Assembly: GCF_964355755.1 (NCBI RefSeq)
Contig: NC_092671.1
Coordinates: 17,703,501 to 17,767,500 of the forward strand
Length of the DNA stretch: 64,000 nt
DNA from: Antedon mediterranea
Taxonomy: Eukaryota > Echinodermata > Crinoidea > Comatulida > Antedonidae
Direction of reading: 5' to 3'
In this document: one piece after another, positions 191 to 59,400 of the stretch
Numbering within the stretch: the stretch's first letter is position 1
Layout: each line of letters begins with the position of its first letter
Translations under genes and position numbers: made by a program
The notes under the pieces: generated by a model
The model's input: only the letters and a program-made list of their open reading frames with translations
What the model was told of the DNA's origin: nothing
Database searches by the model: none

Positions 191-253
191 GTCCATCTTG
201 CAAAAACGCAAATGCTGGGTGCTGGGGTGAAGGCACAGAAAACTACCAACAAT
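191..253 (+). CDS. EGFR: EGFR exon 1 in window (domain II start)
   Basis: Acceptor TTTGAAG, donor GTAAGTG. Enters with two bases of a split codon and leaves with one. Encodes [15 protein letters not shown], matching the start of the furin-like region in ErbB receptors. Confidence 0.9.
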
Positions 254-3200
254 GTAAGTGATAAAAGAAGGTTGAATAAAATACTGTAACAAAACAAAAG
301 AAATATGAGTGTTAAAAGATAAATACTTTTCACTGAGAACGTATCACATTGTGCAATTTAGACGAGATATCTATATATAGATATAACATGTGCAAAAGAA
401 AACTTTAATTTATTCTTTTCAGCAATAAAAATCCATTTTTTTTGTATATAGTTGAGAAATTGCTTTTTGCCTATTCTTCCTTCTCCTTCAATGTACGTAA
501 TTTGTCAAGACAATCAATAAAAAAATGTAGTATATAGATTGGCTGTAAGTAATTTGGATTGCACTAAAATTTAACCATAGGCTCTTACTTATTCATTTAT
601 AAAATTTGGCAGTTTATCGATATTTAAGATTATAAATTATAACGTGAATAAAAACAATTTGATATATATTGAAATTTAGAGGAAAAAAACATATTTTTAA
701 CCTTGGCATTTACCTGTAGGTGTTTTTTAATTTTTTTAAAGTGTCAAAAGTTATTTGTGATAAAACTTGTGACAATCGTTGTCATGGACCTACAGCAGCA
801 GATTGTTGCCATAAAAGCTGTGCAGCAGGTTGTAATGGACCCCTTAATACCGAATGTCTCGTAAGTAACAAACATATTTATAGAGTTATATATAAATCAT
901 ACTGTAAATTATAGAATCAGTGCTCATATTGGGAACATGATCTCATAATCACGTCGAGCATAACTCATTGGGGAAAGTTCCGTATTTTTTAGTTGTATGA
1001 AAAAATGTATCTGGACGGAATTTGAACTTGCAACCTCTTGCTTACAGGGCGAGTATCATACCACTAGACCACAGAGCCATATATGGTATTTTCACAGATT
1101 TTCACCCACCAGACACATTCTCTCGTACCACAAATGCCCTCACAATCAGTGGAGGCTTAACAAGTCAGAATAAATTCCAACAAATATTTAACTTTTAAAG
1201 TTAACTGTATAGATACGTGCAATATAATAATTATTGCGTACATATTTTAAAGTTTTAAACTACATTTAAACAAATTCCTGGGTGCAGGTGTTAATGGTTT
1301 GAATTGTTGGGGGATGGGCATTGGGTGAGGTTCAAGGGGGTGGGGGCTGTATTTGATTTAAAAATACTATTTATACAAATAAATCAATTTACTAACACAT
1401 AGGAAATTCTAATTTTGGTTGTATATTGACAATTAATTTATAAACGATACAGATGAGGAATTTCTGTGAGAATAAAGAAAAATCAACCCCAACCAAATAA
1501 TACAGAAATAAATAAGAAATCATTCTGTAGAATTTCTGTTTAATTGTGATTTAAAATAAAATAATAAATGAAATAGGCTATGAATGTTAATATTGTTATT
1601 TCAGGCATGCCGAGATTTCACTAATGGAGATGAGTGTGTCGAGTCATGCCCACCAAAATTTGTGTATGATCCAAGCAGCTACACGAATGTTCTGAACCCT
1701 AATTTTAAGTTTCCTTATGGTGCCCAATGTATCGAAAAATGCCCAGGTAAGGTTATCTGAGAAGAGATAAACTAAGCTATTAAATGTAATTTACATCATC
1801 ATCATCTTTTATTCAAGTCAGTTTTCTCCCTCTTCAAAGGGGTTACGGACTGTTGCTCTACCAGGCTGCTACACCATCTCTCCACTTCTTCTTGTCTTGC
1901 ACATGTTACTCCAAACTAACTTTTCTCCTTTCTTTCCTACTACTGTAGTACCTTCTTTCTTTCTTTACCATATCTTTCCACCTTTCACCTTTGGCCATCC
2001 TCTTTCTCTTCTACCTCCAACTTCTAAATGCCAATCTCTGTTTACTAGTTCATCTTCATCTTTTCTTAGAATATGTCCCATCCATCAGCTCCTTTGTGTT
2101 CCTTTCTGCCAGCTTAACAGCACACATCTTATAGTTGGCCTTTCTGTTATTCTCAAAATTCCTTCTTCAGTAATCTTTATGTTCGATGTATTTTTATGTT
2201 TAATTCATTATTTGGTATGTTTTATTTGTATGCTTTGTTTATTAGAAAACTTTCTAACTGACAGCGAAACATGTGTAAAGCATTGTGATGACGGAAAACA
2301 AGAAAAAGAGGGCAAATGTGTTGATTGTGATGGTCCTTGTCCAAAGAGTAAGTTTTATAGCGTAGTGGATTAATTACTCGGCAACTATAGCATTTAGCAT
2401 CTGTTTTAGCAATATATCTTCTGTCATTAGTTAAATATATGCACAGAAATTGTAAACATGTTTCAGAAATTTATTTAAACATGTACTGAAACAAACTGAA
2501 ATTTCATTACTTGTTGACTTACAATAATTATATTAAATACATTTAGCATGTGATGGACTGGAGAAGACCGAGTCATTAAACTCTATAAACTATCAACAGC
2601 TGAAAGGTTGTACAATAATTAAAAAAAACATCATCATTGGCGTGGTTACATTTCTTGGGTAAGCAATCTTAACTCTTTTAATGTAAGAAATTTTCAAATT
2701 GGTATACCAGTTTGATAAATTGAGATCAGTAAACAAAAATGGCCAAGTGGTTATGAGCACCGTTTACCAAAACTAAAGAGTTAATATCAGCATAGGTTCT
2801 AGGCCGACTTGCTCCTAGTTCTGGTGGTGGAACAAGTCTTCTCTAAAGGACTATAAACTGTAGGTCCAGTATACACACTGTTTGCCCATATGCACTTTCA
2901 AGATCAAAAATATCCCTGTGTCAGTAGGATTTACCGCCTATCTTATAGGACAATGATTAATTTACAATTGGTAATTCTTGACCATAGGACATAATTAAAC
3001 AATGATTGTCACAGAATGTATCTCACAGTGGCTAAACATAATGCAAGATTAACTAGTGTTTAATTTTACTTGACCTAAAAGTCATTAATTAATATTATTA
3101 TTATAATAATTACATATTAAAAGTAAAATTCTAAATAATTTTTCTAGCAATTTGAACAATAGATTAAAAATATTTTACACTTTATGTTATTCCCATGTAA

Positions 3201-6200
3201 GTTTATATCATTTTACCACTGTATTGCTTGGAGGTAAGATTCTTTACGTATCATATTGTGTTTTCTTTATTTAGGGACGCGCTTAACAACATACCTCCAT
3301 TGACACCTGAAGATTTGGAGATATTTAGAACAGTCAAGGAGATCAATGGCTTTCTATCGGTCCAGGCCACACATGAAAATCTTACCAATTTGTCATTCTT
3401 TGAAAATTTAACTGTCATTAAGGGGCGTGAACACTACAGGTAATGGCTATAGACATTGTCACTAATTTAAATAATTCATAGTTTTACTTGCACTTGACAA
3501 TCAATATCCTTTTTGACCAAACAACTGGTTTGCTCCAACAAAAGTCTCAACGCTTTTTGCAATTCTCTCTTGTGGTCAATTTTTCCTAGCTGCATAGATT
3601 TACTTGGTAAGGACCAAGCTAGTTTAAAAATTGTCAATCCACCATTGACTAGATCTAGATCATTTTAAATAAACGGGAGTTGGATAAGGTCCACGCTTTA
3701 ATATCACTAAGTCACAGCACAAAGGTTGGCTAATATAATCTGGGAGTAGTTTTTGCTAGTCATTGCTAATACAATTTTTTTTTTTCAATTTACAGTTTTA
3801 ATTCAATAGTTAACTTACATTGAAAACCTGTTGTATAATACATACACTATTATTTTTAAATTGATTTAATGCACAAAATCGCACTAAGTATGCCTATGTC
3901 CAATGTAAAATTTTAGGTGGAGGTACACCCAGCTATTGCCAAAAGACAAAATCCCAAACAACAAGCCTAAATAAAATTGAAATCACTATTTCATGTTTAG
4001 AAATATTTCTATTTGTTTTAATTTCATCACAAAAAGCAGCTTCTTAACTAACCATATTTTGTTTATTTTCTAATACAAAATTTTATTTCATATTATACAC
4101 GGGCCTATATGTGACACGGGCACAGCACGCACTCTTTTTGCTAACATGGATATGTGTTTTACATTTTAGTTCTACCCCAGATACACTACATATTCAGCAG
4201 ACTAGCTTACAATATCTGGGTCTGACCTCCCTGGAAGACATATCATCCGGAAATATACGTATTAGAGAAAATGAACAACTTTGTTATGTTAACAACGCCA
4301 TTATGTGGACAAGCAAATTAACTAATGCAAATGAACAGAGAGTAAGAATTGTCCGAAATAAAGTTGCTGAAACATGCAGTAAGTATTTCAAATGAAACAA
4401 TTGTTTTATCATTATTTATACTGTTTCAATAATGATATTGTTCTTTTTAATTCTAGTGTTCATGAAGCATCCTTGTCAATTATGGGTACCAATTTAGAAT
4501 CAGTTGGACTGACATCGCTTGAAAAAATTCTGAAAGGAAATGTATTGTTTCTACAAAATCCAAATATGTGTTATATTGGAGAAAGTGAAATACTGTGGGA
4601 TAAATTTGAACAAAATACAATTGAACAAAGGTTTTTTACTAGTGGCTCTTATAACTTGGGCAACTGTAGTGAGTATATTATTTACTAGCTTATCCAGAAA
4701 TGTGTTTATCACGTTAACCTGTGGGTTATTAAAGCATCGTAACTACGCTTCGTAACATTTTTATCACCACCATCATCACCCATGCACAGCTCTCACCTGA
4801 TAGTTTAAGACCGATTTAGTTTCTGTCTTTTTCGTTGACATTTTTCCAAAGTCTAGTAAAAGTTTTACAATATTCTGCAGTTTATTACATTATTTAGTAC
4901 TTTATGTTTTGCTAGTGATTACAGTGATGGCAAAATCCAGTTCTAATAGCTTCTTTAGTAACAGTAATGTTCATCTGTTCATTGTTAGTTTCCATACATA
5001 GGGTTGCATGATGTATTAGTAATACAGAATTTGTCTTTATTACATTAAAAAGAATGTAGTATTTAAAATTTGCATATAGATTTAAACAAATATAAATTAT
5101 TTGGTCATTTAGACGCAACAATCAAGCTATTGGCTATAAACCAAATGTGTAGTGTAGTGTATATTTACTACCAACATAAAAACTAAAATCACAAAATTAT
5201 TGTGAGTTCAATTGAGACATATACTATGCAGGCTACAATTGTACCAGTGTTATAATAAGTACATTTAAAATTAATTAATTAATTAACAGATGTTTACTTT
5301 ATAAAAGACATTTACTATAGATTTTAAAATAGAAAACAAAAGCAAATTAATATTGTTAGTTTCTTCATACTGGATTCAAAATATAATAGTTCACTTGTCT
5401 TGCCTTGTCAACTTAGAGAAATTGACAAAGCACTAAAGTAAATAATGACTTAACTGTAAACATAACCTTTGAAACATTATGCAAACTTAGCTGTGAATGA
5501 CGTAATATTTTTGTTATGTCATTCACAGCTAAGTTTAAAATGAAAAGTATGTTTCACATATTCACATAATCACACAGACAATGTCATTTTAATCAATAAT
5601 TACAACTAAATGAAAGCACAACTATACCAATGTATCGTATTGTCCTTCAACAAATTAGTTAATTGAAACTATTTACAGTAATAAAGTTTTAAAAAGGTGT
5701 ATAAATCAAGCAAAGAATACATTTAAAAGAGTTAGGATTGGCTTTTTTAGCTAACTTTATGTCCCAACATGAATACGGATAGAAACAATACTCTTGACTT
5801 AAATTGTTATTTTTCAGTCAGTCATTCGTTTAATCACAATGTTTTTGGTATTTAGTTCATCTCAAATTCATAGCAGTGGTTAAATTGTTGTATTCTAGGT
5901 CAAATCATTATTTGATTGCATGATATCATATGTTATGAATTCATATAATATGTGAGATAGTTTTTGTCTTTCAACAAATTCAAATTCACTTCCACTGTCA
6001 TACATCTGATTTTAAGTGTTTGAACAAATTGTTTTAGAGTATTGTATTTGTTCAACTTAGCTTTGAAATTGTTTTAGTTTCCTTGATGGAGTAACTGGTA
6101 TTGAAGATTTTAAATGTACAGTGTGGATATCTTTTTGGCTATTTGGCAGTAGAAGTCATAATTATTTTTTCATTGTGAAATCTTGTTTTAAATGAAGAGT

Positions 6201-9200
6201 ACTTGTTCTATGGTTTTGTAGTAGTAGTTGTCGTCATACCACTTCAGATCGCATTATTTTATTAGTTACCTTTTAGGAATTGAAAGTTGAAGAGCAGTTT
6301 TATTGTGATGAACAAGTGAACTAAATGGTACCAGAGTGAACTAATTGGAAATATGTTGGGTGAAAGTCATTTAATTAATTTTGATTTTTTTTTTGCAAAC
6401 AGGCATCCAAGCTTACTAACCAGCACAAATGATTTTCTTTTTTATTTCTAACAAATATTTTTTAGGATTTAATTTTGCGTTTTATTTGCAGAGATATGCA
6501 CACAAACACATATAAGAGAAGAGACTTGGATTATTAACAAACATAGCACCACACAGCTATTGACTTGGGATAGGGACTAATCCCTAGATATTGACTGGGA
6601 GTGCATGGGAATAACCCCTAAATATTGACTGCGAGTGGAGTTAATCCCTAGCTATTGACTGGAGGTGGGAATAACCCCTGGCTATTGACTGGGGATAGAG
6701 AATTATCTCTAGCTATTGACTGAGGGTGGAGTTGATCCCTAGCTATTGACTGGAGGTGGGAATAACTCCTAGCTATTGACTGGGGGAAGGGAATTATCTC
6801 TAGCTATTGACTGAGGGTAGAGGTATCAAAGTAGGGAATGACTGGTTCCACTTTGGCAGCTATGTAACAAGGGCTTTGATACATTTTGAAGTTTTATTAA
6901 CAGCTTTAGCTTCAAGGCTTTTTATGTTGAATTAAAAGAGGCTACAGATAAAAGGACTAAATCTATTATTACATTTGCATTTGAATATGAATAATAGTAT
7001 TGTGAATTCCAAAACCATTTAAATGAAAACAACAATTTTTTAAAAACTTATTTGCTAAATTTACTAACAACATTTATTAGTTTTGTTAAACTGATATTTG
7101 CTAAACATTACAATATTGTTCAAATATTAAATAATTCTGTAGCCTCTTTCAATCAAAATGTTGAGCTTTTAAAGATAAGAACACTACCACAGTAGTTTGC
7201 AAGCCATGCTTCTTATGTATACCAATTATTTAATAAATTGAAGTTCAAAAAATTTAATATTATACACAAATAGAAGAATATGATTTCGGAAAAACAAATT
7301 AAAGTGATTATTTTTATAAAGATACATGGATAATGATGGTTTTATAACTTTTTTTCTCAAAATATTTTCAAACAAAAAGAAAATAATATTTAAGCAATCT
7401 CTTTGTGTATAATTGTAACATTGAGGTTGATGAGGGAAGAGTGAGATAACATTCTCACTTTTCCCTGGGTTGATGAGGTTTGGTGACGGTTGGCATTTGA
7501 AGTGATTTTTTAAAAAAAACCACCAAAGTATGGATATGATTTATCCATATGTATATGACATGATATCATCATTGGATAATATGGAGCTTTTGATTGCGAT
7601 GACCTATGACCTACGTATTGAGGTTTCGTTGGTCATCGTTTGAACCTAGAAACCACCAAACTAGTGTCAAGGAATTGTGAGGATGCACTTCCTTGCGCAC
7701 AATTAATTAAGTTGTAAAGCTTGTTTCGCACTAGGACGCAAAGCAAGGATGTGGGTCACAACGTAAGTGAATTTACCAATCACAAGCAACAGTTTGAATA
7801 ATCCATCGCTTTGATTGATTAATTCAGTCGTGTTGCCGCTTACATCCTTGCATTGTGTCTTTGTGGGAACCAAGCTCCTTCGGTCATTACAAATATAAAG
7901 CTCCCTATTTCTATTATCAATATGGATATTTTTATTGTTTTACAACTATGTGAATTACATCTGAATCTAAATATTAAACTTTCCTGATTTTTGGGCTATA
8001 ATATTGAAGTTTAAAAATGTACATAATTTTGATAAATTCAATTTCTCCCACAAAGCATTTATGCTGCTAATACAGTAAATGTAAATTAAAAAATTGAATG
8101 TAGTGTACTATATTTTCAATTTACCGTGATTAAAGATGACTTGAATGAATTTATATGTTGGTATTTTATTCGTTTTAAAACTCGATAATAAAAGCATATC
8201 AAAGTAGAAATAAAACATGCTTGATTAAAAAGCGCTCTTCCACAAAGTCTAGATATAAAAATAATAAAAAATCATTACATTGAATTACAAATGATCATTT
8301 CCTGCAGCAGTAGACTTACATTAAATATATTGATATAGTAATTGAATTTACCTTAATTATGCAACATAGTATCAGATGTACTTCACATAGGTATGTTACT
8401 TGGAACATTTACCATTGTATTTTTATATTGTAGTGTATGCACATACATACATATTACATTATAACACACATACATAAGTTTTCTGCTGTTATTTTATTTA
8501 TATATATATATATATAAACAAATCAGGCAAAGAACATTAATTCTAAACCGCCCGGTAATATACTGAAATTTAATTAATTCATTTGAAACGATAAAGATGA
8601 GGAAATCTGTGAGAATGACAGATATATATATATATATATATATTATATAAAATTCATAAATTAGGTTTAAATTATTTGTTGTATAGAATTAGAAATTCAT
8701 CTGAATAGAAATATTTGTTTATATATTTGTATTTGTTTTGAAGTTTGATATTATGTTTGATTAATTTAATTAGTTAATGAGGGACGTGTATGCGATGCCC
8801 AATGCCAACAGATAGGTTGTTGGGGTCCTGGTCCAGAACAGTGTGTCGAATGTAAGAATAGAAAGATTGGTAATAAATGTGTTGAGGACTGTGATTATGA
8901 AAATGGGTAAGTTTCTAATAAGCTAAAAATAATATGTTACTATAACTAATTATTGTTTTTTTTTTTTCCTTGCAATTTGAAGAACTTATTTAAAGAGCAT
9001 TTATTGTTTTTCCTCGTGTTAATCTTGGTCGAAATCATATTTATTGTTTGTTTTATCTGGAGGTTAAGACATAAAACCATTTTGGCTGATTGAAAACATT
9101 TAAATTTTCTGCATCATCGTGTAATTTTGTAATTAAAAAAGTGTTCCTTAACTTAGTAAAAGGAAGTAAAAGTTGATTCATTTGTTGTATTTATAGGGAA

Positions 9201-12200
9201 TACCTTGCAGAAAACGATACATGTAAATATTGTCACGAAGAATGCGTTGGTGGATGTTCAGGGCCGGTAAGTTCCAAACTGATTGTTCAAGTTCAAGTAA
9301 TTTTTATTACGATAATAAAAACAGATAACATAGAAGACTAAAGATTGAATTTATTGTTATTTTAGGGGTGGATCCGGGGAAGAGCGCTGACATGCAGTAA
9401 TAATATTAATAGTCTGTCCAAAATAGATAATAATAATATCCTGGATTTATATAGTGCCTAATGTTGTGAAACCTCTAAGCACTGAACAGTATTATGTCAT
9501 TCATTTTTCGGTCATTTTTTGCATCAGACGTGTATGGAAACATACTCCCATAATGCTGCTAGTAATCAGCGCAATGTTGTGTCTTGATATCCAAATGTAG
9601 TTAGGTATATGTTATTTTAGCTGTCAAAGAGGGACCCCAATGCTGCCCAACTGGATCCATCCATGTATCTATATAAATTATGGTTAATTCTGACATAGGC
9701 GAGCACAATGCAAAAACTTCGGTACAAATCTCCGCCTTGGATACCTACCTTATCTATCTCAGATGTACCGCAAAACGTAGATTTGATAACATTAGTTTTC
9801 AGTTCGATATTACAAAAGAGTTTTTTAACAAAATTTAAGATTTCAACAGTAGATTTTCAACTCAATTTCAATTCTTCGCGGTCAAAGTAATTTCCGGGTT
9901 TACGATGAGTTCACCTTGCAACAACCTGGTTTCAACTATCTTCTCTCTTTTATACACAAGGGAGCAGTTAAAATAATAGTATAGATTTGACCCTAAAGGT
10001 GACTGGAAACAGGCACTTTCCATCAATCAATACAGTGTCTCTTTGGAAGACGAAAACAAATCAGATAGTAAGACTGGGGCTTAAGTTGGCCATTAGTTAT
10101 AGCCATTTCAGTTTTTTGTTTATTTTAAAAACGGACCGCGCGTGTGTGAAGGTAGAGTGGTTAAAAATAAAATTTATATTGCAAATTAATAAAGATGAAA
10201 TTAAATATACGCCATAAAGAATCGGAATATATTGTGGGAAATAGTATTATAAAATTACATAGGGAGATTTGATGATAAGACATTTTGTTTAAAATCGAGT
10301 GAAATCCCGATAGCTGAGTTTTATTGAGTAAGCTGGCAGGAATAACTGTAGGCTATCTCCCTGTGTCCCGTTAGGACCGAGATGTCTGCCCGTGTTGCAA
10401 GCCGTAATGTCTTCTTTCTTGGGCCCACTCTGTCACGGCAGTTAGTTTCAAAAGATGTTTAAATTAAATAATGTATTAATAATTATTAGGATGGTATTTA
10501 TTTGAATAAACCCCTCTCCAATAAAACATCACTTTGAATAATAATCCCCCCCCCCCCCAACCCAACTATCTGATAAACGTCCATCCACATTTATAATAAC
10601 ACAATTATACTATTTGTAGTAGAATTCATCGCACTGTTATCTACAATATACCAAGCATTTGTTATTCTTTTTTACCACTTTTCATATCTATTAGAGGATT
10701 TCAAAATTGCCTATTCAAAATATGAATAATTAATCTTCATTTTACATGTTTTAATACATATATCTTTAACATACATTTGTGGTCTTTTGTAAACAGGGTA
10801 ATAACAAATGTGATGGATGTAAGAATTTCAAAGATGGACCATTTTGTGTGCCAGAATGTCCTAAAGTGAAGTATAATGATTCATATACTTGTAAATCTTG
10901 CCATGATCTTTGCATTGAAGGGTAAGTATTTTTTATTTTATTTTATTCAATCGAAACCAACAGCGATAATTACCGCCACTAATGCAAACAAAGCCAGGAC
11001 TGTGTAAAGCACCTTGATTGGTCCTAACATTGATCAAGGGCTTCTCTCGTCCAGTGCCCACCTTGACCAGAGGAAAGGCATATACCAAAACGTCTGAGGC
11101 AGATACCAGATGAGGGGCTGCCATAACTTTGGTGATCTGACGAGAACCGATGTTTCAACGTGGTAAAGCCGTATAAGTATATAAGTGTAATTTGGTTTTA
11201 ATGATACATATATTATAATATATATCACATGTGATACAGGCGTGGCATATGATACTGGACATATAATAATAATAATAATAATATCCTGGATTTATATAGT
11301 GCCTAATATTGTGAAACCTCTAAGCGCTGAACATTTTTTTGGGATCAAACAAGTATTCAGCTAGTAATCAGCGCAAAGTTGTGTCTTGATCTAACCGGGT
11401 TCCCATTTATACACCTGGGTGGAGACAGGCAAACATAAGTAAAGTATCTTGCCTAATGATAATGCCATATGTAGCGATTACAGATGATTATTATTAAGAT
11501 TATGAATACAGAGGATCGAGTGGATATTATGAATATGAATAATAATTTTCTTAACAGTTGTAGTGGACCTTCAAATACTATTGGTGAAAACGGCTGCCAT
11601 GCCTGTGCAAAGGTTAAGGTACAACAAAGACAAAAATTGGTAAGTTATAAATATTAAGGATTTGTTAAAATACTGTAGAACTCCCATTAAAGCCGATTTT
11701 CCACTAGATAGGCGAATTTGTTCGCGCGAATCGAAAGCGTCATGCTATGCACATGCGTATTCGCGTTTCTGTCTGTCATACTGCCTTCTTCGACGAATTC
11801 TAGTTCCTTTGATTTTTCGCTTCAGCGAAATTTACTAGTTCGAATTGTTTCTACTTTTTGCGAAGCGAAATATTGCGCAACCAATCAGAGCTCAAGAAAT
11901 GAGATATGACGCTTTCATGAGCACTCATGCGAATGGAAATGCTCAGCAACCACGCGAGGAACATGAACGTCGCAGCTATTCGCTCATGTACTGGAAAGAG
12001 AGTAGGCGATTTTTTCTCTTCGAAATATTGGATTCGCGCCAACAAATTCGCCTAGTGGAAAATCAGCTTAAGGGGACACCCTAGGGACCCAACAAAATGT
12101 TCCCTTAATAATAGGAGTGTCCCTATATTGGCCGTAATGTTGAACAGGTTTGATACAAACAAAGCCAGGACTGTGTAAAGCACCTTGATTGGTCCTAACA

Positions 12201-15200
12201 TTGATCAAGGGCTTCTCTCGTCCAGTGTCCAACTTGAACAGAGGAAAGGCATATACCTTTCCTCTGTTCAAGATACTTTACTTAATGTCCCCTTAATGTT
12301 CCCTTAATAGGAGTGTCCCTATATTGGCCGTAATGTTAAAACATACTATATTTCCCCTTGTTTATTTCATGAGAAATCCCCTTAATAAAGGTATCCCTTG
12401 AATAGTGCTCCAAAGGAGGGGATCTATTGTAATAATATTTATTTTGTCAACAGGAGTGAGAATAGACTAAAGCAAAAAGATTTTGCACTCTCCCCATTGT
12501 ACAGTAAACAAACAGTACAATAATATACAACAAAATTAAACAAAATACAATAAAACTATAAAACTATACATTACAAATTTCATTGCTTGGAATTTGTGCT
12601 TTCGTACATGATTGTCAATTTTCAATCCTCCTTCATGATACTTGATTAACATTTAAATTGTTTTTGGTTACTGAATTCAAAATCTGTTATATATTTTCTA
12701 AATAGCACTTATCCTGTAATTTCTAGTTTCTAATCGGATATTTTTTTTTTCAAAATTAACTCATTGTTGAACGTTATCCCGATATTTTTCTATAGCATGT
12801 TTGTTAAGAAAATAATTTGACAATTTAATATTATTATTATGCTTTTAGATTGAGTGCTTACCTGGTGGTGCTTTTGGTATCAATACAACTTGTGATGAAG
12901 GCTTTTATTATGAAAGAAGGTCACTTAAGAACTCTGATACAGTAACTCAGGTAATTCACTACAAATTAGCTTTCTGATCTAAGCACAATTGTATAATAAA
13001 CATATGGTTAGGCTACTGTGGATGGATCAAATGGAGTGGGGTGGTGCAGCCAATACGGTAATGCAGAGGCCTGAGGCCCATGGTCTGAACCCTAAGTGCC
13101 CCTGCAACGCTGGAGGCCTTGAACGTTTTCAGCCTTTTTCAACTTATTTTAAAGCTGGTTGTTTCCTCTGGGTCCATAGCCGTTACGCCACTGGGTGGAG
13201 CTACATTTACTAAATGAAACATCAAATTGCGATGTATATGAGGTGGCGGAAAGTAGTCAAAGTCAAAGTACTGTATTGGCAAGAATTAAACATGAAATGC
13301 AAGACAAAAACAACAACAAAATGTTGTGGCCTAGGCTTTAGATTTATCAATCAAGCAAGTTTATAAAGAAGCAATAATAATATTAATAATAATAATAAAA
13401 ATAATTTGTTTAAAAAACAACATCTATATTACACAACATCAAAGACCATCACGAAGCCAATGTTTTCTCACCAAGATGGCGGCTTGCTAAGTACTATGGT
13501 AAAAATGTAACGTCAGTGCAAACATTCCTTTGAAGAATATTTCTCTATTGATTTTCTATTGAATCTAATATTATTAAACTGACAGACAGCAATAATGAAA
13601 GGTATCTTTTTTGTATTAGGTTTGCCAAGAATGTCACCCAGAGTGCCGCAACTGCACTGGGAAAGGCAGCTATAACTGTGATGTTTGCAAGAACTTCAGA
13701 CGTGATGACCAATGTGTTCCCACATGTAAACCCGATGAATATTATGATGAGGCGTTTGAATGTCATCAATGTCATACACATTGTAAAGGAGGCTGCAATG
13801 GACCATCTGCATCTGAATGCAAAACTGACTGCAGCAAGTACAAGATAGATACTGGTGATGGAAAGGTATATTTGTATTATGTAATTAGTATTATGTAGAA
13901 CCCCTTTTCAAGAACCAAAAAAGTCTCCCTCTGAATAGAAGGTGGCTGTAGTGTATAAAACATATATTGCCCCTCATTAATTTCACATAAAACTGGGGAT
14001 ACAGATACTATGTATTCAACATATTTACAAGGATAACCTTATTATCATTAGTCGCTATTTCTCTACGCTATGGATGTTTATATATTATTTAAATAATAAG
14101 GTTTTAGTAGGATTAATTGATATTTCGAAATCAACAAGATTTAAGGTCTCTGATCTTCATGTGTTTGGAGGCAATATATGCTTTCAAAAGTGACAATAAA
14201 AATATCTAGTATCAAGAACAGGTAGCTATTGGGCATCATAAAATACATGCAACCAGTGCCCAGAGGAGGGCGGGGGGGGGGTGTTTCACTCTTAAATATT
14301 TTCATACGGGGAGGTGCCGCATTTACGGGGTATATTTTGGTGGTGAATTTAATAGTCTCTTGCCCGTCCACTTTTAAAATGTCACAATTTATCCCACAAT
14401 TTTAGCAGGGATTATAGCTATACTGAATGCTAAGCCAATCGCTAAATGAATCCTACCTTTGAATCAATGAAAACTAGTTGCTTATGTTATTGCAAAACCT
14501 TGTCACGAACAGTTCCCCTTTTGCTGGGAACTAGTACAAATATTGCGCCCTATCTGGCGTGGCCTTTTTCATGTCGCCTTGGGAACCAGTGTCATTCCTT
14601 TGTATTAAATCAATATATCATATTTTTTGTTGAGCATTTAAAATATTTCTTTTCAGTTTCTATGTGCATCAGAATGCCCTGTGGACTACCCATATCAAGA
14701 TAGGCCGTACCATTGCATATCCAACTGCTCAGAAAACATGTTTGCAAATGAAAAGTACTTTTGTCGACCTTGCCATGACGAGTGTTTTGCAGGATGCTTT
14801 GGTGATCAGCGAAAGGATTGTGTGCAATGTAAAAACGTGATTCATAATGGAGAGTGTAGGAGTGCTTGTCCCAGTGGAACTGATATGAATGAAAATAATG
14901 TTTGCAAAACTGTGTCAATGCCAATTACAGGGCAAAGCACCAATCAACCAAAGTGAGTTTTAGATACTAAAATTAATCAGACAATTATTAGTAGAAATAT
15001 AACTTTTTTAGCCATTATATTTATTTGAGATTCATATGATATTGAATTAAATTTTCTGGCTTTTAATATTTTGCCTTCAATTTCTTTTCTTTTTTTTTCA
15101 ATTTCTTACTTGATTCAGTCTTATTTCTAGATCTGGCTTGTCAACCTCAATGATAGCTGGACTCAGTGGTGTTTTTATAATCATATTGCTGATTTTAATT

Positions 15201-18200
15201 GTAATTATTTACTCCGTGTATAAACGCAAGTACAAGGATAACTTACTAGAACTTACCACTACCCTTGTAAGTATACAACTATTACATAATATATTTTCCG
15301 TTTGATTTCTGTGATTTTCTACATTTATAATGTGTTGTGTATGATTATAATATACATAGTACTGTACTTGATCTGTTGATGTAAAGTATTTTTTGATGGT
15401 CGCTACCATTACCAGTGTTACCTCCATATGTCATATTCCTAATCAGTATCTTCATCATCATTGTTATCGTTATCATCATCATCGGCATCATCATCATCAT
15501 CCTCACCAATCATCATTATCATCATCGTCGTTATTATTATTATCATGTTATCAACATTACTTTAACATCATCATTATCATTATCATGTTATCAACATAAC
15601 CTTTAACATCATCATCATCATCATAATAATTTATCATCATCATCCTCACCATTATGTTATCAACATTACCTTTAACATCATTATCATCATCATTACCATC
15701 ACCACCATCATTATCATCATTATGAATATCATGTTATCAACATTACATTTAACATCATCATCATTTATCATCATCATCATTATCATGTTATCAACATTAC
15801 CTTTAACATCATCATCACCATCTTTATCATCCTCATCATATCATCAACATTATTAATATCATGTTATCAACATTACCTTTAACATCATCATCATTTTTAT
15901 CATTTTATCTACTTTACCTTTAACATCATCATCATTATTATCATTTTATCAATATTAACATTATCATCATAATCATCATTATTATCATGTTATCAACATC
16001 TTTAACTAAATCATCAGCATCACTATTTCATCATCATCATTTCTGCCAAGCATTACCTTTCATTCTTTTCATTATTACATTGACATATTTTATACATGCA
16101 TACTCTATATATCATGTGGCATGTATTTGTTAAAGCATGGTAAAATGTATGTATTTTTAAATTTCATTGTTACAATCGTCTTGCTAAATTTGTATTTTCC
16201 AATCGTTTGTTGGAAACATTTGCATGAATTCTGTATTTGGGTACACAATTTTGGTAGTTAATCCTTCATCTTGTTTATTAATATAAAATTTAACTTATGA
16301 AAAACATATGATATGATTAGTGGTAAACTTGTCTATAGTTTTAATTTAATAATCAGAGTTTAATAAATGCAACATTCACTAAATTTGATTTATTACAAGA
16401 AAGCTTATTATATGTAAAGAATATTATATTTTATCCAAAGTGATCATATAAATGCATTTTATTATTTAATATCTAGTTTTTTATAAGCATAATAGAAAAA
16501 TGAAATTTAAGGAATAATGCAATATTGTTTATTGTACCTTGTGGTAATATACCTTGAACCCTTTGAAATAATATTTATATCAAAAATGTTTACTATCAGA
16601 TAAAGTGTAAAAAAAATAGTGGTTGGTATCAAAATATTAGACTCATTTAGTGGATGGGTTTACAATGACAACAAATTATTAATGCTTGTACTTTTTAAAT
16701 AGTGCATGTAAATGAATAAATGTTATCTTTTTTGCATGCTTTAATTTTTACAATAGGCCATAAAACAATTGGAACATCCGGATGAAACTGAGGTAAGGGC
16801 ATGTTTTATGTTACCATGGTAATTCATGTGTGTTGTTTTATCAGTATTTTGATTGTGCGAAAGGAAAAGAGGATGGATTTAGATGTTTGTGCATGAATTG
16901 TTACCAATTTTATTAACTTCAGTAAATCTATAATATATATTATAAAGTTGTCTGGTATTATAATGTGGACATAAATAGATACAGCCATGCACAATTTGTA
17001 ATTTTGTAATCAATAAATAATATATATAATAATAATAATATTTTGTTTCTTGGTATTCACATGAGCTTTAATCCTTGTACACATACGTACTAACGACATT
17101 ATTTTGTTTATGATAACCATGACACCCTATTGATGTAATGAAGTATTCGTTCATGTCCCACTCTTTATCCTTACTTGTTATAAATAAATATAATATATAA
17201 ATAAATATGTTTATATCATAATATTTAAATACAATTTCCATATTTTTTTCAACTTTAGCCTTTGACCCCAAGTGGTGTAGCGCCAAATCAAGCACAGTTG
17301 CGATTGATTAAGGAGAATGAAATGAAAAAGATGTCAAAGCTAGGAAGCGGTGCTTTTGGTACTGTCTACAAGGTATCAATATATTTATTTACTATACATT
17401 CATGTTTTTTATCTTCCAAATCTCTCTCTGCGATAAATCCTAATTCCATGAGTATTTTCGCTGCAGTGAAATTGGTAGTTCGAATTGTTACTACTTTTTG
17501 TGATTGAAAAATTGTGAAACCAATCAGAGCTCAGGAAAATGAGCTATGATGCGTTTATGAGCACTCATGCAAATCGAAAACTCAGCAGAAACGCGATGAA
17601 CATGAGAATCACAGATAGTGGAAAGAATGATTTAACGTTGGATTAGTGCAAACAAATTTGCCTAGTGGAAAATCTTTGTCCCTTTGAAATATCTTTGTCC
17701 CTTTGACTAATTCCAAAAAAATTAAAAATAAAAGATTTCGAAAAAAGGTGGCTCATTTTGAAGTATCATAATAATTATTAACTATCACCAAAAAATTTTC
17801 AAAAAAAAAAAATCATTTAACTGAAATACAGACGTTTTTTTTGTTAAAAAAATAACTTTGACTTCCAGTCAAAGTTTTCGATAAAAATATATCCCATAAT
17901 GAAACGCGCTTGTTAGGCTACTCTGTATCCATAATAATAAAACTTCCTTATGATCCGTGTGAAAATACCTTCTCAACCGTGACAAGTTGTAAACAATCCT
18001 AATTAACGTATGCATAAATCGTACTCATGGTTTGAAATCTTTGTTTACTTTCGCTCGCGATGATTTTCCAGATGAAATGTAATCAAACTAATTTATCTGT
18101 TAATTACGTAAACTTGTTGTTTTTAGCTCGAATTTTCTTTAATATTACTTTGATATGGCAACTTTAAATTTAGAATATTTTGACCTTCACTTTTTTGTGT

Positions 18201-21200
18201 TTCAAGGGACAATACATCTTTAAGGAGACACTTTCGGGAAGTATATATTTTTTTCCAAGGAAAGTGTCTCCTAAATAGCGGTGTCCCAAAGGAGGGTGTT
18301 CTACTATTACCTGAGTTCACGCTTGGATGAAACGATGCAACGATAATACAGTGTGCGTACATCCTTACGGTACATCCAAGTTAACATCAATTTTATATTG
18401 TCAAAAAAACTACTGTTTAATTAATTTTCATAGGGAGTTTGGACACCAGAAGGTGAAAAGGTACGAATACCGATAGCTATCAAGGTTCTCCAGGAGGGCA
18501 TCACAGCAAAAGCAACACAGGAATTATTAGCGGTATGTATAATTTGATTAAATTCTACACTTGACTTTTGTCAGCCATTTCTCCTCACAATGAGAAGCTA
18601 TAGAGTGCGAGTTTCTCAAGAAGACTTATTAATGACGTGTTTGCATGTATATGCAATATCAGTCTTACAACCAACAATTTTAGATTTATACATCTGTTAT
18701 TGTTTTCTTCCATGTTAAAGTTGTTGTATTAATTTTGTATCAATTATACATATTAGGAAGCTTATGTAATGGCTTCAGTGGATCATCCGTGTGTTTTGCG
18801 GTTACTCGGCGTCAACTGCGGACAAGAAATGATGTTAATCACTCAACTTATGCCGATGGGGGCACTTTTGGAATTTACGAGAGAACACAAAGGTCGTATC
18901 AGCTCACAACATTTATTGTTGTGGTCTCATCAAATTGCACAGGTACGGTATAATGTGTAACATGTATTTAGATGTAAAATGTTAAAATTGTAATTTAACT
19001 GACTGGAATTCAGTGCGTTTCTGGTTGAATTTAACTGTTTGTTTGTCTATTTATAAGTGAAAACATTAATTTGTTTATAAAAGTTTATAAAAAAAACCAC
19101 AAAATGGCATATTCAAAGTTTTTTTTAAAAATCTTATTTATTAATACATCTTTATCATTCTATTTAATTACAATTTAATTTACATTTGTAAAGACTACTT
19201 CAAATATTTGTTGTTCTCACAGGGAATGGTGTACCTTGAAGATAAGCATATCATACACAGAGATTTAGCAGCCAGGAATGTTCTTGTATTGTCACCAAAC
19301 CAAGTCAAGATCACCGATTTTGGTCTTGCAAAGTTTCTTGAGATAGAAGAACATGAGTATAAATCTGACGGTGGAAAGGTTAGAAGTTCTACTTTTTAAA
19401 GAGGACTTCCTTGGGCTAGCCCATAATGTATTTTTCCACTTCCTTGGGCTAGCTAGCTAGATATTGTCCAATTTCAATGGATATTGTATGATTTCTACCC
19501 TTTGGAAAAAAAGACGATCAAAAACGATCTCGACGAACACGTGAAATAACGTGGTCGTCGATCATAAACGAAGTCGCTTTGTTATCACTAATTCTGTTCA
19601 ACCTTATCTCAATTAATTACGTTTCTCAATAGACGAACAATGGCCCAATTATAACATAACAAAGGTCTAATTAAACACATCAATAACACCGCGGTAGATT
19701 ACAAAGACCGGGCGGCGATCGAACTGTCAATCATTGTTAATAGGTCGTTCAAGTTTATTAGCCAATCGCAAATCAGTTTCCGTGTGGGTGGATCAAGTAA
19801 ATTGTCCAATCAACAAAGCCCTCACGACACTGACAACATTTTTCTGGCATGCGATTGTGTGCACTCACTACTGTAGAGGACGCGTTTTGGATTGTTTTTC
19901 AAAGTGCACTCTGGCGACTAAAATAACGCATTATTAATCTGCCTTCGCAGTATTTTTTTTTAAAGGTACGATTTAAAACGACCAATAATATGTACAATAA
20001 TATATCGTCGTATTTTTCAGTGCGTACAAAAACGACCAATAACGTACCGGTACACTATCATATACAGTAATAAATATTATTAATAAATCGTCGTATGTTT
20101 TCATACGACCAATAACGTCATAGTTATACAGTAATTATTATTATTGATCGTCGTATGTTTTCAGTGCGTAAAAAACGACCAATAACGTACACTATCATAG
20201 TTATACAGTAATTATTATTATTGATCGTCGTATGTTTTCAGTGCCTAAAAAACGACCAATAACGTACACTATCATAGTTATACAGTAATTATTATTATTG
20301 ATCGTCGTATGTTTTCAGTGCCTAAAAAACAACCAATAACGTACACTATCATAGTTATACAGTAATTTTTATTATTGATCGTCGTATGTTTTCAGTGCGT
20401 CAAAAACGACCAATAACGTACACTATCATTATACAGTAATTATTATTGATGATCGACGTATTTTTCATTGCGTACAAAAACGACCAATACCGTACACTAT
20501 CATTATACAGTAATTATTATTATTGATCGTCGTATTTTTCATTGCGTAAAAAAACGACCAATAACGTACAATATCATAGTTATACAGTAATTATTATTAT
20601 TGGTTATTATTATTATATATTATTATATTATATATTATTATTAAATGTATTGGTATATTTATTATTGCAACCTAAACTATATTCATAGTAAAATAAAGGT
20701 CTATTCACTGTAAGTTGGCCGATCTAACTGCAGCCGGCCGCGGGATAGCCGTTCGCCTGCGAGGCCTATGTTTTCCGCAACGATTGAAGAAAAAACTGCA
20801 GTTTAATTTCGAACGCGATCACACAAAACGCGACGGAACGCGATCACACACCACATGCACCACCACCACCAGAGATCGCCTTTCAGTTTAGCTCCTCCTC
20901 TTTTCTGATACTCTATTGTTTATGTATCGCGTGGAAATTAATTGGATTAATGCCAATTATGAAAGGTTCGTTAAACCAATTACCGCGGTGGTTAGAGGGT
21001 GTAAAGTCTGTGATCGTTTTTTAATCAGGATAAACGATTAAAACAGACTCGAATATGATAGTTTATGATCGTTAGTACTCTAAACATGTACTAACGTGTT
21101 CGTCGTTTTTTCCAAAGGGTAGGGATATTGTCAAATTTTCAGGGATATTGTCCAATTTCAATAGATATTGTATGATTTCCAGAGATATTGTCAAATTTTC

Positions 21201-56399: not shown

Positions 56400-56446
<47 letters not shown>

Positions 56447-59400
56447 ACTATGCGTAGTATTACCATCCCCTTGTTGTTCTGGTTGTTTGCACTCTTTCAC
56501 GTTACTAAACATAATGTGTCTGATATTCCCAGGTATTTACAACCCCATAGTAACATCAAACTCTTGGGACATCCTTACAAAAAGTGCAAGTTCTCAAAAA
56601 GTAGAGTACAATATGATCACAATTCAATCTCCACTTATAATATTGACTTGACCGAATGTGGGGATGTCCACTCTAATCCTGGACCAGAATCAAACATGAA
56701 TCATAATAACAATACAAATCGAAATACACCTCCGATTCATTGTCATGTTTGTGAAAGAAAGATTGCAAAAAACCGACAACAGCTTAAATGCTTTAATTGT
56801 TCTAGGAATTTCCATGCTAGTTGTGTCTACATTAATCCTCATAGGTTTAGAACATTCTTCAAAAATAGGTCTTCTGACTGGTGCTGCCATCTTTGTGCAC
56901 TCCCAAAACTGAATGATTCATTCTTTAGTATCTCTTCGGATACAAATGAAAACGATGCATTGCTCAACTTGGATCCACTAGTATGTGGAATCAACAACGA
57001 TTCCAGCAGTAATTCGGACTCTATCATTGATCCTGCAGAGGTACTGAAAGGAAAAGGCATGCATTTTCTTCATGTTAATGCGCGGTCTCTACTACCCAAA
57101 ATATCTGAACTTAGAACACTTGTTGGTGGAACCAAAGTGGCAGTCATTGCTGTCACTGAAACACACCTTGACAGTTCCATTACCGATAATGAAATACACA
57201 TCCCAGACTTCCAACTATATCGTCGAGACCGTGCCAGAGCAGGTGGTGGAGTATGTCTGTACTTCAAGTCTACCCTGGCTATTACTATGCGGTCTGACTG
57301 TAACAATGCCAACATTGAGGCACTATGGTCTGAAGTACATCTCCCAAGAACAAGGCCTATTATCGTTGGAGTCTGTTATCGGCCACCAAAACAACGTCAT
57401 GGTGAATTTATTGATGGAATGGATGACATTATGGAACAACTACCGAGAAACTCAGAGATCTACATTTTCGGAGATACAAACATGTGTAGCTTGAAAAAGG
57501 ATAGCAACTATATCAAATTCCAACAGACTCTGCACATCAGTGGAATGTCTCAAATTATGAGCGAACCCACACGCATCTGTGATTCCTGCGAATCTTGTCT
57601 TGATCATATTATCACCAACTCTTCGGACAAATTAAACAAATTCGGAGTACTATCTATAGGCTTCAGTGATCACTTTCCTATATATGCCACTCGTCACACA
57701 CAGCAACAAAAACACCACACGCATAAAAAGGTGAAGATTAGATCAACTAAAAACTACAATAGAGAAAAGTTTATACGTCTTCTTCAAGAGACTGATTGGG
57801 ACAATGTTCACAAGGCAGAAACCGTTGATTGTTCGTGGCAAGCCTTTTGTGTAAATTTCACAAATGTTTTGGATAAAGTTGCTCCTGTAAAAGAAGTCAG
57901 AATTAGACACTCTTCTCAGCCGTGGATGACACCTGACATACTCAAAATTATTAAGGCCAGGGATATTTATCTTAAAAAATTCAAAAGAACTCGTAATTTA
58001 TTATATCGTACTGAATACTGTAAACTTAGAAATCAGGTACAAAGAAATATAAAAGAAGCAAAGCAGACTCATTTTATTGACAAGATCAATACAAATCGAC
58101 ATAACCCTAAAAAGTTATGGAAGGTTATAAAAGATCTTGGGTATCAAAATAAACAAAATGAAACTGCTTCGATTACTCTTAAAATAAATGACAAACTATG
58201 TAGTGAGCCAAACATTATTGCCAGTCACTTTAACTCGTTTTTTACAAACGTAGCATCAGATCTGGTAAGAAAGCTCCCGCAAAGGTCATACGAATTTGAT
58301 GTAAATTCTGAGAATTTTAAAAAATACTATGACGGTACTGACAAATTTTCCTTGCAACCTGTAAACAACGATATAGTTAAAAAGGAGATCTTGGGTCTCA
58401 GTATAAATAAAAGTACAGGTCTAGATGGCATACCCGCACGTTTTTTAAGGGATGCGTCAGAAATTATTGCAACTCCCATAACACGGATTATCAATTTCTC
58501 ATTTGAAACGGAATGTTTTCCAAATGAGATGAAATTGGCTCGTGTTCGACCAATTTACAAGAAAAAAAGTAATCTTGAAACTGCTAACTATAGGCCTGTC
58601 AGTATACTGTCTGTGGTGTCAAAAATTGTAGAAAAGATTGTTCACTCACAATTAAATGAGTTTTTGGAAAGGAACAAGCTTTTATATCGTTTTCAGTCTG
58701 GTTTCAGACAGTCCTTTTCAACAGATCACTGTTTAATTCACTTGACAGACTTCATCAAAACTCAAACAGCGAAAGGAAAATTTACTGGTATCTTACTTAT
58801 TGACATCCAAAAAGCTTTTGACTGCGTTAGTCATGACTTACTTTGTAAGAAACTCAGAAAAATTGGAATCGAATCTGTCAGCTGGTTTAAATCATATCTG
58901 GAATGTAGACATCAAACAGTCAATATTGGTGGGGCTGTTTCAGAGCCTTCAGAAATTGTATGTGGAGTGCCACAAGGGAGCATCCTGGGACCACTCCTGT
59001 TCCTCATCTACGTGAATGATATGCCTATGTCCGTCTCATCATTGTTAATGCAATATGCTGACGATAGTGCAATTGTCAATGCTCATCATGATCCTGATAT
59101 CATCAGTAAAAATCTTGCTAGGGATCTGTCTAATTGTAATAAATGGTTAATTGACAATAATTTATCACTTCACATGGGAAAAACTGAACTAATGTTGTTT
59201 GGTCCCAGGATGTCTCTCAAGAACTACACAAATTTTAGCGTCCTTTACAATGGCTATACAATTTCTTTGAATAGCTCTATAAAATACCTTGGTATCGAAC
59301 TAAGCAATAGGCTTAATAGTGAATTAATTGTCTCAACAATTATTAAGAAAGTTAATGGTCGTATTAAATTTGCGTATAGGAATTGTCGTAACTTTGATCG

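Follow-up and report, generated by a model that had tools for sequence, protein, structure and literature searches.

A candidate pair of mutually exclusive exons in the ligand-binding domain III of an ErbB/EGFR receptor gene from Antedon mediterranea

The stretch of Antedon mediterranea DNA analysed here (64,000 nucleotides, hereafter the window) carries an ErbB/EGFR receptor gene in which an exon of domain III appears to have been duplicated in tandem. The two copies, termed exons 7A and 7B, are probably spliced in a mutually exclusive manner to produce two full-length receptors that differ in ligand preference or affinity. Judging from the sequence, mutually exclusive use is strongly favoured, and this single gene probably makes two receptors, which could answer different signals. 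That the two forms differ in the ligands they choose is a plausible proposal, for which the structure of the pocket offers a concrete basis.

The diversity of ErbB ligands is usually attributed to gene duplication or to the existence of several ligands. If our reading is true, swapping the pocket of domain III by splicing would be a third route to this diversity, parallel to the IIIb/IIIc switch of FGFR. The gene would also supply a natural pair of ectodomains, different only within a stretch of ~70 residues, in which the determinants of ligand choice by ErbB receptors could be sought.

Gene identity and exon organization

The ectodomain was put together by eye from exons in the window and in the adjoining upstream sequence, where the exons for domain I reside; a signal-peptide exon was not found in this assembly. 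The assembled ectodomain matches residues 1 to 508 of human ErbB4 with an E value of 2.1e-128, followed by EGFR, ErbB3, and fly EGFR. Pfam detects two receptor L domains (PF01030), a Furin-like domain (PF00757), and the start of GF_recep_IV (PF14843), and the domain order is L1-CR1-L2-CR2. No Ig family, as an Ig-type ectodomain would contain, is among the ectodomain Pfam matches. When domain III is assembled with exon 7B, its best match is human EGFR (E = 5.9e-46). The kinase domain is recognized as PF07714 on one exon, and the other kinase exons are recognized by motif. These features indicate that the host gene of exons 7A and 7B is a genuine ErbB/EGFR receptor.

The exons of this gene described below lie on the forward strand of the window. 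Domain II and the start of domain III are encoded by exons at 191-253, 742-860, 1605-1746, 2246-2347, and 2547-2658. A constant exon (3275-3439) encodes the larger part of the first half of domain III (also called L2), including the residues that correspond to human Asp355 and Gln384; it ends at the donor CACTACAG/GTAATG. The second half of domain III is present in two versions: exon 7A (4170-4378), which is the conserved version and has a charged or polar pocket, and exon 7B (4457-4668), which is divergent and has a non-polar pocket. A 78-nt intron (4379-4456) separates them. The next constant exon (8774-8906) encodes the start of domain IV (GF_recep_IV).

Further cysteine-rich ectodomain exons, with AG/GT borders and an open frame, are located at 9197-9266, 10797-10921, 11558-11639, 12849-12950, 13620-13865, and 14657-14952. 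A putative transmembrane and juxtamembrane exon (15131-15266) encodes, as judged by eye, an extended hydrophobic segment with basic residues after it, and this segment sits in the open spliced frame. At 19223-19378 lies an exon of the kinase domain that has AG/GT borders and encodes the HRDLAARN and DFG motifs; PF07714 is detected there with an E value of 3.9e-18 on window positions 19145-19396.

Tandem exons with a shared frame

A first-pass annotation of this DNA had proposed that exons 7A and 7B are homologous, that they have lengths of 209 and 212 nt, and that both are 2 modulo 3 with identical phases. Coordinates, lengths, and phases were all recovered when derived anew: each exon has AG/GT borders, the entry phase AG/T, and the exit phase /A. 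Thus, either exon finishes the codon begun in the exon that ends at 3439 and passes one base to the exon that starts at 8774. The splice borders of exon 7B are TTCTAG on the acceptor side and GTGAGT on the donor side, and the two exons differ in length by exactly one codon. Their homology is also borne out, with 40% identity over 55 amino acids (E = 6e-12). The 7A and 7B peptides, each searched alone, score 32.8 and 25.3 bits with PF01030 (cutoff 21.8), in both cases with the C-terminal part of the L domain. The earlier assignment of both exons to the ligand-binding L2 domain of an EGFR stands, and the part that they encode is the second half of this domain.

Splicing of the exons from 191 to 15266 gives an open frame with no stops when only 7A is included, and likewise when only 7B is included. 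As the annotation had predicted, use of both exons or of neither destroys the frame. An RNA that joins 7A to 7B encounters a stop 13 codons past the last 7A codon, within the shifted 7B, and an RNA lacking both exons has a TAA directly after the junction codon. Because of this frame logic, the only full-length coding outcome is inclusion of 7A or 7B, one alone.

According to a study of mutually exclusive exons (PMC3228551), such exons are predicted by a similar length, homology, and agreement in splice pattern and frame. Exons 7A and 7B show this similarity of length, are compatible in splicing and phase, and are homologous. In the same study, of 16,180 exons on the fly X chromosome that are not annotated as mutually exclusive, only 90 (0.56%) share these predictors.

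The duplication appears to be confined to this one exon. Further copies of 7A or 7B were not detected in the 64-kb window, where tblastn matched the two exons only to each other at E <1. Similarly, no other tandem exon copies were found in the gene's DNA, at an E value of 0.05, for the 17 ectodomain exons that include 7A and 7B. The remaining cross-matches of these 17 exons reflect cysteine-rich repeats and L1/L2 homology, apart from two that are isolated, short, and weak.

Coding constraint on exon 7B

No position in either flanking intron starts an open stretch of 70 codons on the forward strand (0 of 520 positions in one intron, 0 of 3895 in the other). The alignment of exons 7A and 7B covers 207 bases, 110 of which differ (53%); dN is about 0.79, and dS is about 1.8, a rough value that is near saturation. 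We simulated neutral decay of exon 7A to the observed 53% nucleotide difference in 5000 runs. The frame was still open in 45 of these runs, and in none of the 5000 was an open frame combined with the C, C, W, and Y landmarks (two cysteines, the tryptophan, and the tyrosine of the Cys-Tyr pair). Neutral decay does not explain exon 7B, and for a large part of its past the exon has therefore presumably been constrained as coding sequence.

These data bear on two other ways of viewing the second exon. The immediate or early stops that result from using both exons or neither are also what one would expect if the second exon served mainly as an off-switch, with NMD of such RNAs lowering the level of receptor and the difference between the proteins being secondary. 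However, a poison exon needs no full half of an L domain with its frame and landmarks kept, as the absence of such outcomes in the simulation underscores, and we regard an off-switch as very unlikely. Alternatively, exon 7B could be a relic, or a copy silenced not long ago, that sees little use; this would fit its long branch in the tree described below. Against this stand its open frame, good borders, length change of a single codon, and Pfam score above the cutoff, as well as its intact state despite the rough dS of about 1.8 from 7A and the outcome of the simulation. There is consequently little reason to believe that 7B is such a relic, and the view that both exons are used, one at a time, is preferred.

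How exclusion might work

The reading frame alone would suffice to make the exons exclusive: transcripts with both exons or with neither contain stops, and NMD should eliminate them. Exclusion through frame and NMD is perhaps aided by the short intron between the exons. The first-pass annotation had suggested that this intron is short enough to hinder splicing of both exons. All 16 other introns measured in the gene, 2 of them upstream, exceed its 78 nt; the smallest has 178 nt. So do 24 introns of myosin and chaperonin genes, the smallest of which has 114 nt, although these sizes are estimates from neighbouring match pairs, chosen by hand among 80 myosin and 56 chaperonin matches. Among these pairs, 23 of 24 abut or overlap in their model positions, and the one gap of 26 positions was corrected for. 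This sample is biased against short introns, because very short ones, if read through within one match, would be missed.

The proposed hindrance itself is less certain. In the mammalian OGDH gene, exclusion of exons 4a and 4b is ascribed to branch points less than about 50 nt from the 5' splice site (PMC7969005). Exons 7A and 7B are like the OGDH exons in that they are tandem and homologous, with a short intron between them. In this intron, adenines in UnAy contexts that resemble branch points occur at 30, 33, 36, 40, 54, 57, and 72 nt. However, the candidates that are best placed with regard to the 3' end are those at 54 and 57 nt, slightly beyond the limit of ~50 nt and thus unlike the situation in OGDH, with others at 30 to 40 nt. 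Steric hindrance by the 78-nt intron is therefore possible, but borderline. A sign of exclusion through RNA structure, by competing intronic pairings of the docking/selector kind, was not seen either: the predicted RNA fold of the intron is nothing unusual (z = 0.02), and none of the 25 inverted repeats inspected, of 52, has an arm inside it.

Residues of the ligand pocket

In human EGFR, the pocket for EGF Leu47 is formed by Leu382, Phe412, Val417, Ile438, Ser440, and Ile467, and EGF Arg41 forms a salt bridge with Asp355 (PMC4282322). Gln384 hydrogen-bonds with the ligand backbone (PMC3728333). Phe412, Val417, Ile438, and Ile467 had been listed as ligand contacts in the first-pass annotation and are indeed pocket residues in PMC4282322, whereas Ser440 was missing from that list. 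The equivalent of another contact on the list, His409, falls on the split junction codon and is Ser in both forms.

The two receptors would have domain I, the kinase, and the first half of domain III in common. The equivalents of Asp355 and Gln384 are conserved in the constant exon, so that both forms are expected to have these anchors; the Leu382 equivalent, in turn, is Ser. The part that is swapped would be the second half of domain III, which holds most of the pocket for the C-terminal hydrophobic residue of the ligand (Leu47 in EGF). At positions 412, 417, 438, 440, and 467, the residues are D, Q, R, R, and V in 7A; A, M, L, L, and S in 7B; and F, V, I, S, and I in human EGFR. Thus, none of the 5 Leu47-pocket positions located in the swapped exon has the same residue in 7A and 7B. 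The mean Kyte-Doolittle hydropathy of these positions is -2.36 for 7A and +2.10 for 7B, compared with +3.04 for human EGFR, +0.64 for fly EGFR, -2.24 for ErbB4, -2.14 for ErbB3, -0.98 for ErbB2, and -1.86 and -0.10 for two paralogues in the same genome. Because the pocket is charged or polar in 7A and non-polar in 7B, the two forms should prefer different ligands or bind them with different affinities.

The pocket comparison was picked after the sequences had been seen. The signed difference in hydropathy was compared with that of random sets of five columns, which gave p values of 0.003 for all 69 columns, 0.006 for 53 columns, 0.012 for the 43 variable columns, and 0.028 for the 33 columns that are variable and differ between the exons. 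With columns limited to those having at least five residue types, three pocket columns remain and p is 0.19. When one position at a time is left out under the 33-column control, p becomes 0.058 for position 412, 0.058 for 417, 0.12 for 438, 0.13 for 440, and 0.0009 for 467. The signal is thus spread over four positions and is fragile. Identity alone gives no significant result, as 5 of 5 pocket positions differ versus 39 of 64 elsewhere (p = 0.097). When the set is widened to nine positions, p is 0.013; four of the nine (418, 443, 465, and 468) are presumed ligand positions, among them Lys465 of human EGFR, which the first-pass annotation names as a ligand contact.

A survey of human pairs of tandem exons found that most of the predicted ligand-binding residues (80.6%) are conserved between the forms (PMC9741552). 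Conservation of 0 of 5 pocket residues between 7A and 7B is unusual in this light, although we read the survey as concerning mainly small ligands. AlphaFold models of the 7A and 7B peptides alone, each of which is half a solenoid and had an alignment of two sequences, reached mean pLDDT values of 38.8 and 37.9 and were not used.

The strong difference in pocket hydropathy, together with the fast evolution of 7B, could also mean that the exons are exclusive but that one form, be it the divergent 7B or 7A with its charged pocket, has little or no affinity for ligand. Such a form would be an orphan receptor, a co-receptor, or a decoy, and the switch would set responsiveness instead of the choice of ligand. 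ErbB2 is a known member of the ErbB family that does not bind ligand. However, both 7A and 7B retain the structural landmarks equivalent to C446, Y447, W453, and C475, and they share the constant Asp355 and Gln384 anchors. Moreover, neither the 7A pocket nor the 7B pocket duplicates that of ErbB2. We consider a weakly binding form unlikely, and favour two receptors that each bind ligand with a preference or affinity of their own.

An extension of this favoured reading is more tentative, and we hold it to be possible but doubtful. One gene might provide both a hydrophobic "EGFR-type" pocket and a polar "ErbB3/ErbB4-type" pocket, such that tissue- or stage-specific splicing would take the place of the vertebrate split into genes for EGF-like versus neuregulin-like ligands.

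Comparison with known systems

Exchange of the mutually exclusive IIIb and IIIc exons strongly alters the ligand affinity of FGFR1-3, and FGFR genes of several bilaterian lineages have other alternative-exon events (PMC5703972). Like FGFR1-3, the gene described here encodes a receptor tyrosine kinase in which a tandem duplicated exon pair would swap part of the ligand-binding domain. Unlike FGFR, in which the swap affects part of Ig domain III, it has an ErbB L domain, and its two forms are predicted. By presumed mode of working, the nearest system is most likely FGFR IIIb/IIIc, whereas by membership the gene belongs with ErbB and not with FGFR.

With vertebrate EGFR, ErbB2, ErbB3, and ErbB4, the gene has in common the L1-CR-L2-CR order with a kinase and the homology of domain III. 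In vertebrates, however, pocket chemistry is varied among four genes, whereas here two chemistries reside within one gene. Known splice variation in ErbB genes includes ErbB4 JM-a/JM-b and soluble EGFR, and none of this variation is known to swap domain III. An EGFR in which an L2 exon is swapped was not known to the first-pass annotation, and none was found in the open-access literature among the matches listed.

The same genome has another pair of tandem homologous exons, located in a myosin heavy chain gene (C1:19156800-19160100, positions 2747-2848 and 2933-3022). These exons of 102 and 90 nt lie in the region of the motif NPxxEAFGNAKTxRNDNSSRF, and they are likely a second mutually exclusive pair. 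They resemble 7A and 7B in being homologous and separated by a short intron (84 nt). Unlike 7A and 7B, both have lengths that are multiples of 3, and the frame thus permits their joint use.

Paralogues and the origin of the exon pair

A search of the animal's own genome (354 Mb) revealed two further genes with ErbB-like ectodomains, one on C2 near 14.114-14.143 Mb (reverse strand) and one on C6 near 25.77 Mb (forward strand). In each, the exon for the second half of domain III is single, with lengths of 203 nt (C2) and 200 nt (C6:25774064-25774263). Both exons are 2 modulo 3, and their entry and exit phases are those of 7A and 7B, so that the exon borders must be old. A second copy of the exon was not detected in the stretches examined around these paralogues (5.6 and 2.5 kb). 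A weak match to 7B in the C2 paralogue (E = 0.31) was rejected as chance, and stops occur in all three frames nearby. The doubling is thus specific to the gene with 7A and 7B or was lost elsewhere.

In a tree built from nine homologues of the exon, the branch leading to 7A is short (0.53) and that of 7B is long (1.84). Placement of 7A and 7B as sisters is the best arrangement but is not significant, as two other placements are not rejected by the AU test (p = 0.70, 0.43, and 0.19). Exon 7A is 39% identical to human ErbB4 versus 36% to 7B, and the sequence nearest to 7B is 7A. The long branch of 7B could reflect relaxed constraint.

Other features of the genome and window

Of five contig starts, three of which consist of N, that of C3 shows a CCCTAA telomere; together with the lengths of 9 of the 18 contigs, this suggests about 11 large chromosomes. 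Over 5.5 Mb of C3 (19.6-25.1 Mb), at least 19 matches to nearly the same segment of the myosin motor (model positions about 342-408) were observed when 65 of 334 candidates were scored. This apparently represents a large expansion of one myosin.

At 56402-59890, the window contains a long open frame of a non-LTR retrotransposon, which by eye is of the endonuclease/reverse transcriptase type. Near its start is the motif CGDVHSNPGP, which we take to be a 2A-like motif.

Two repeats are located in the intron that follows exon 7B. A near-perfect inverted repeat of 23 nt (5483-5536), with 96% complementarity and a loop of 8 nt, could be a small mobile element or a hairpin RNA. Farther downstream, positions 6556-6819 are occupied by a diverged tandem array with units of about 30 nt (AGCTATTGACTGGGGGT and variants).
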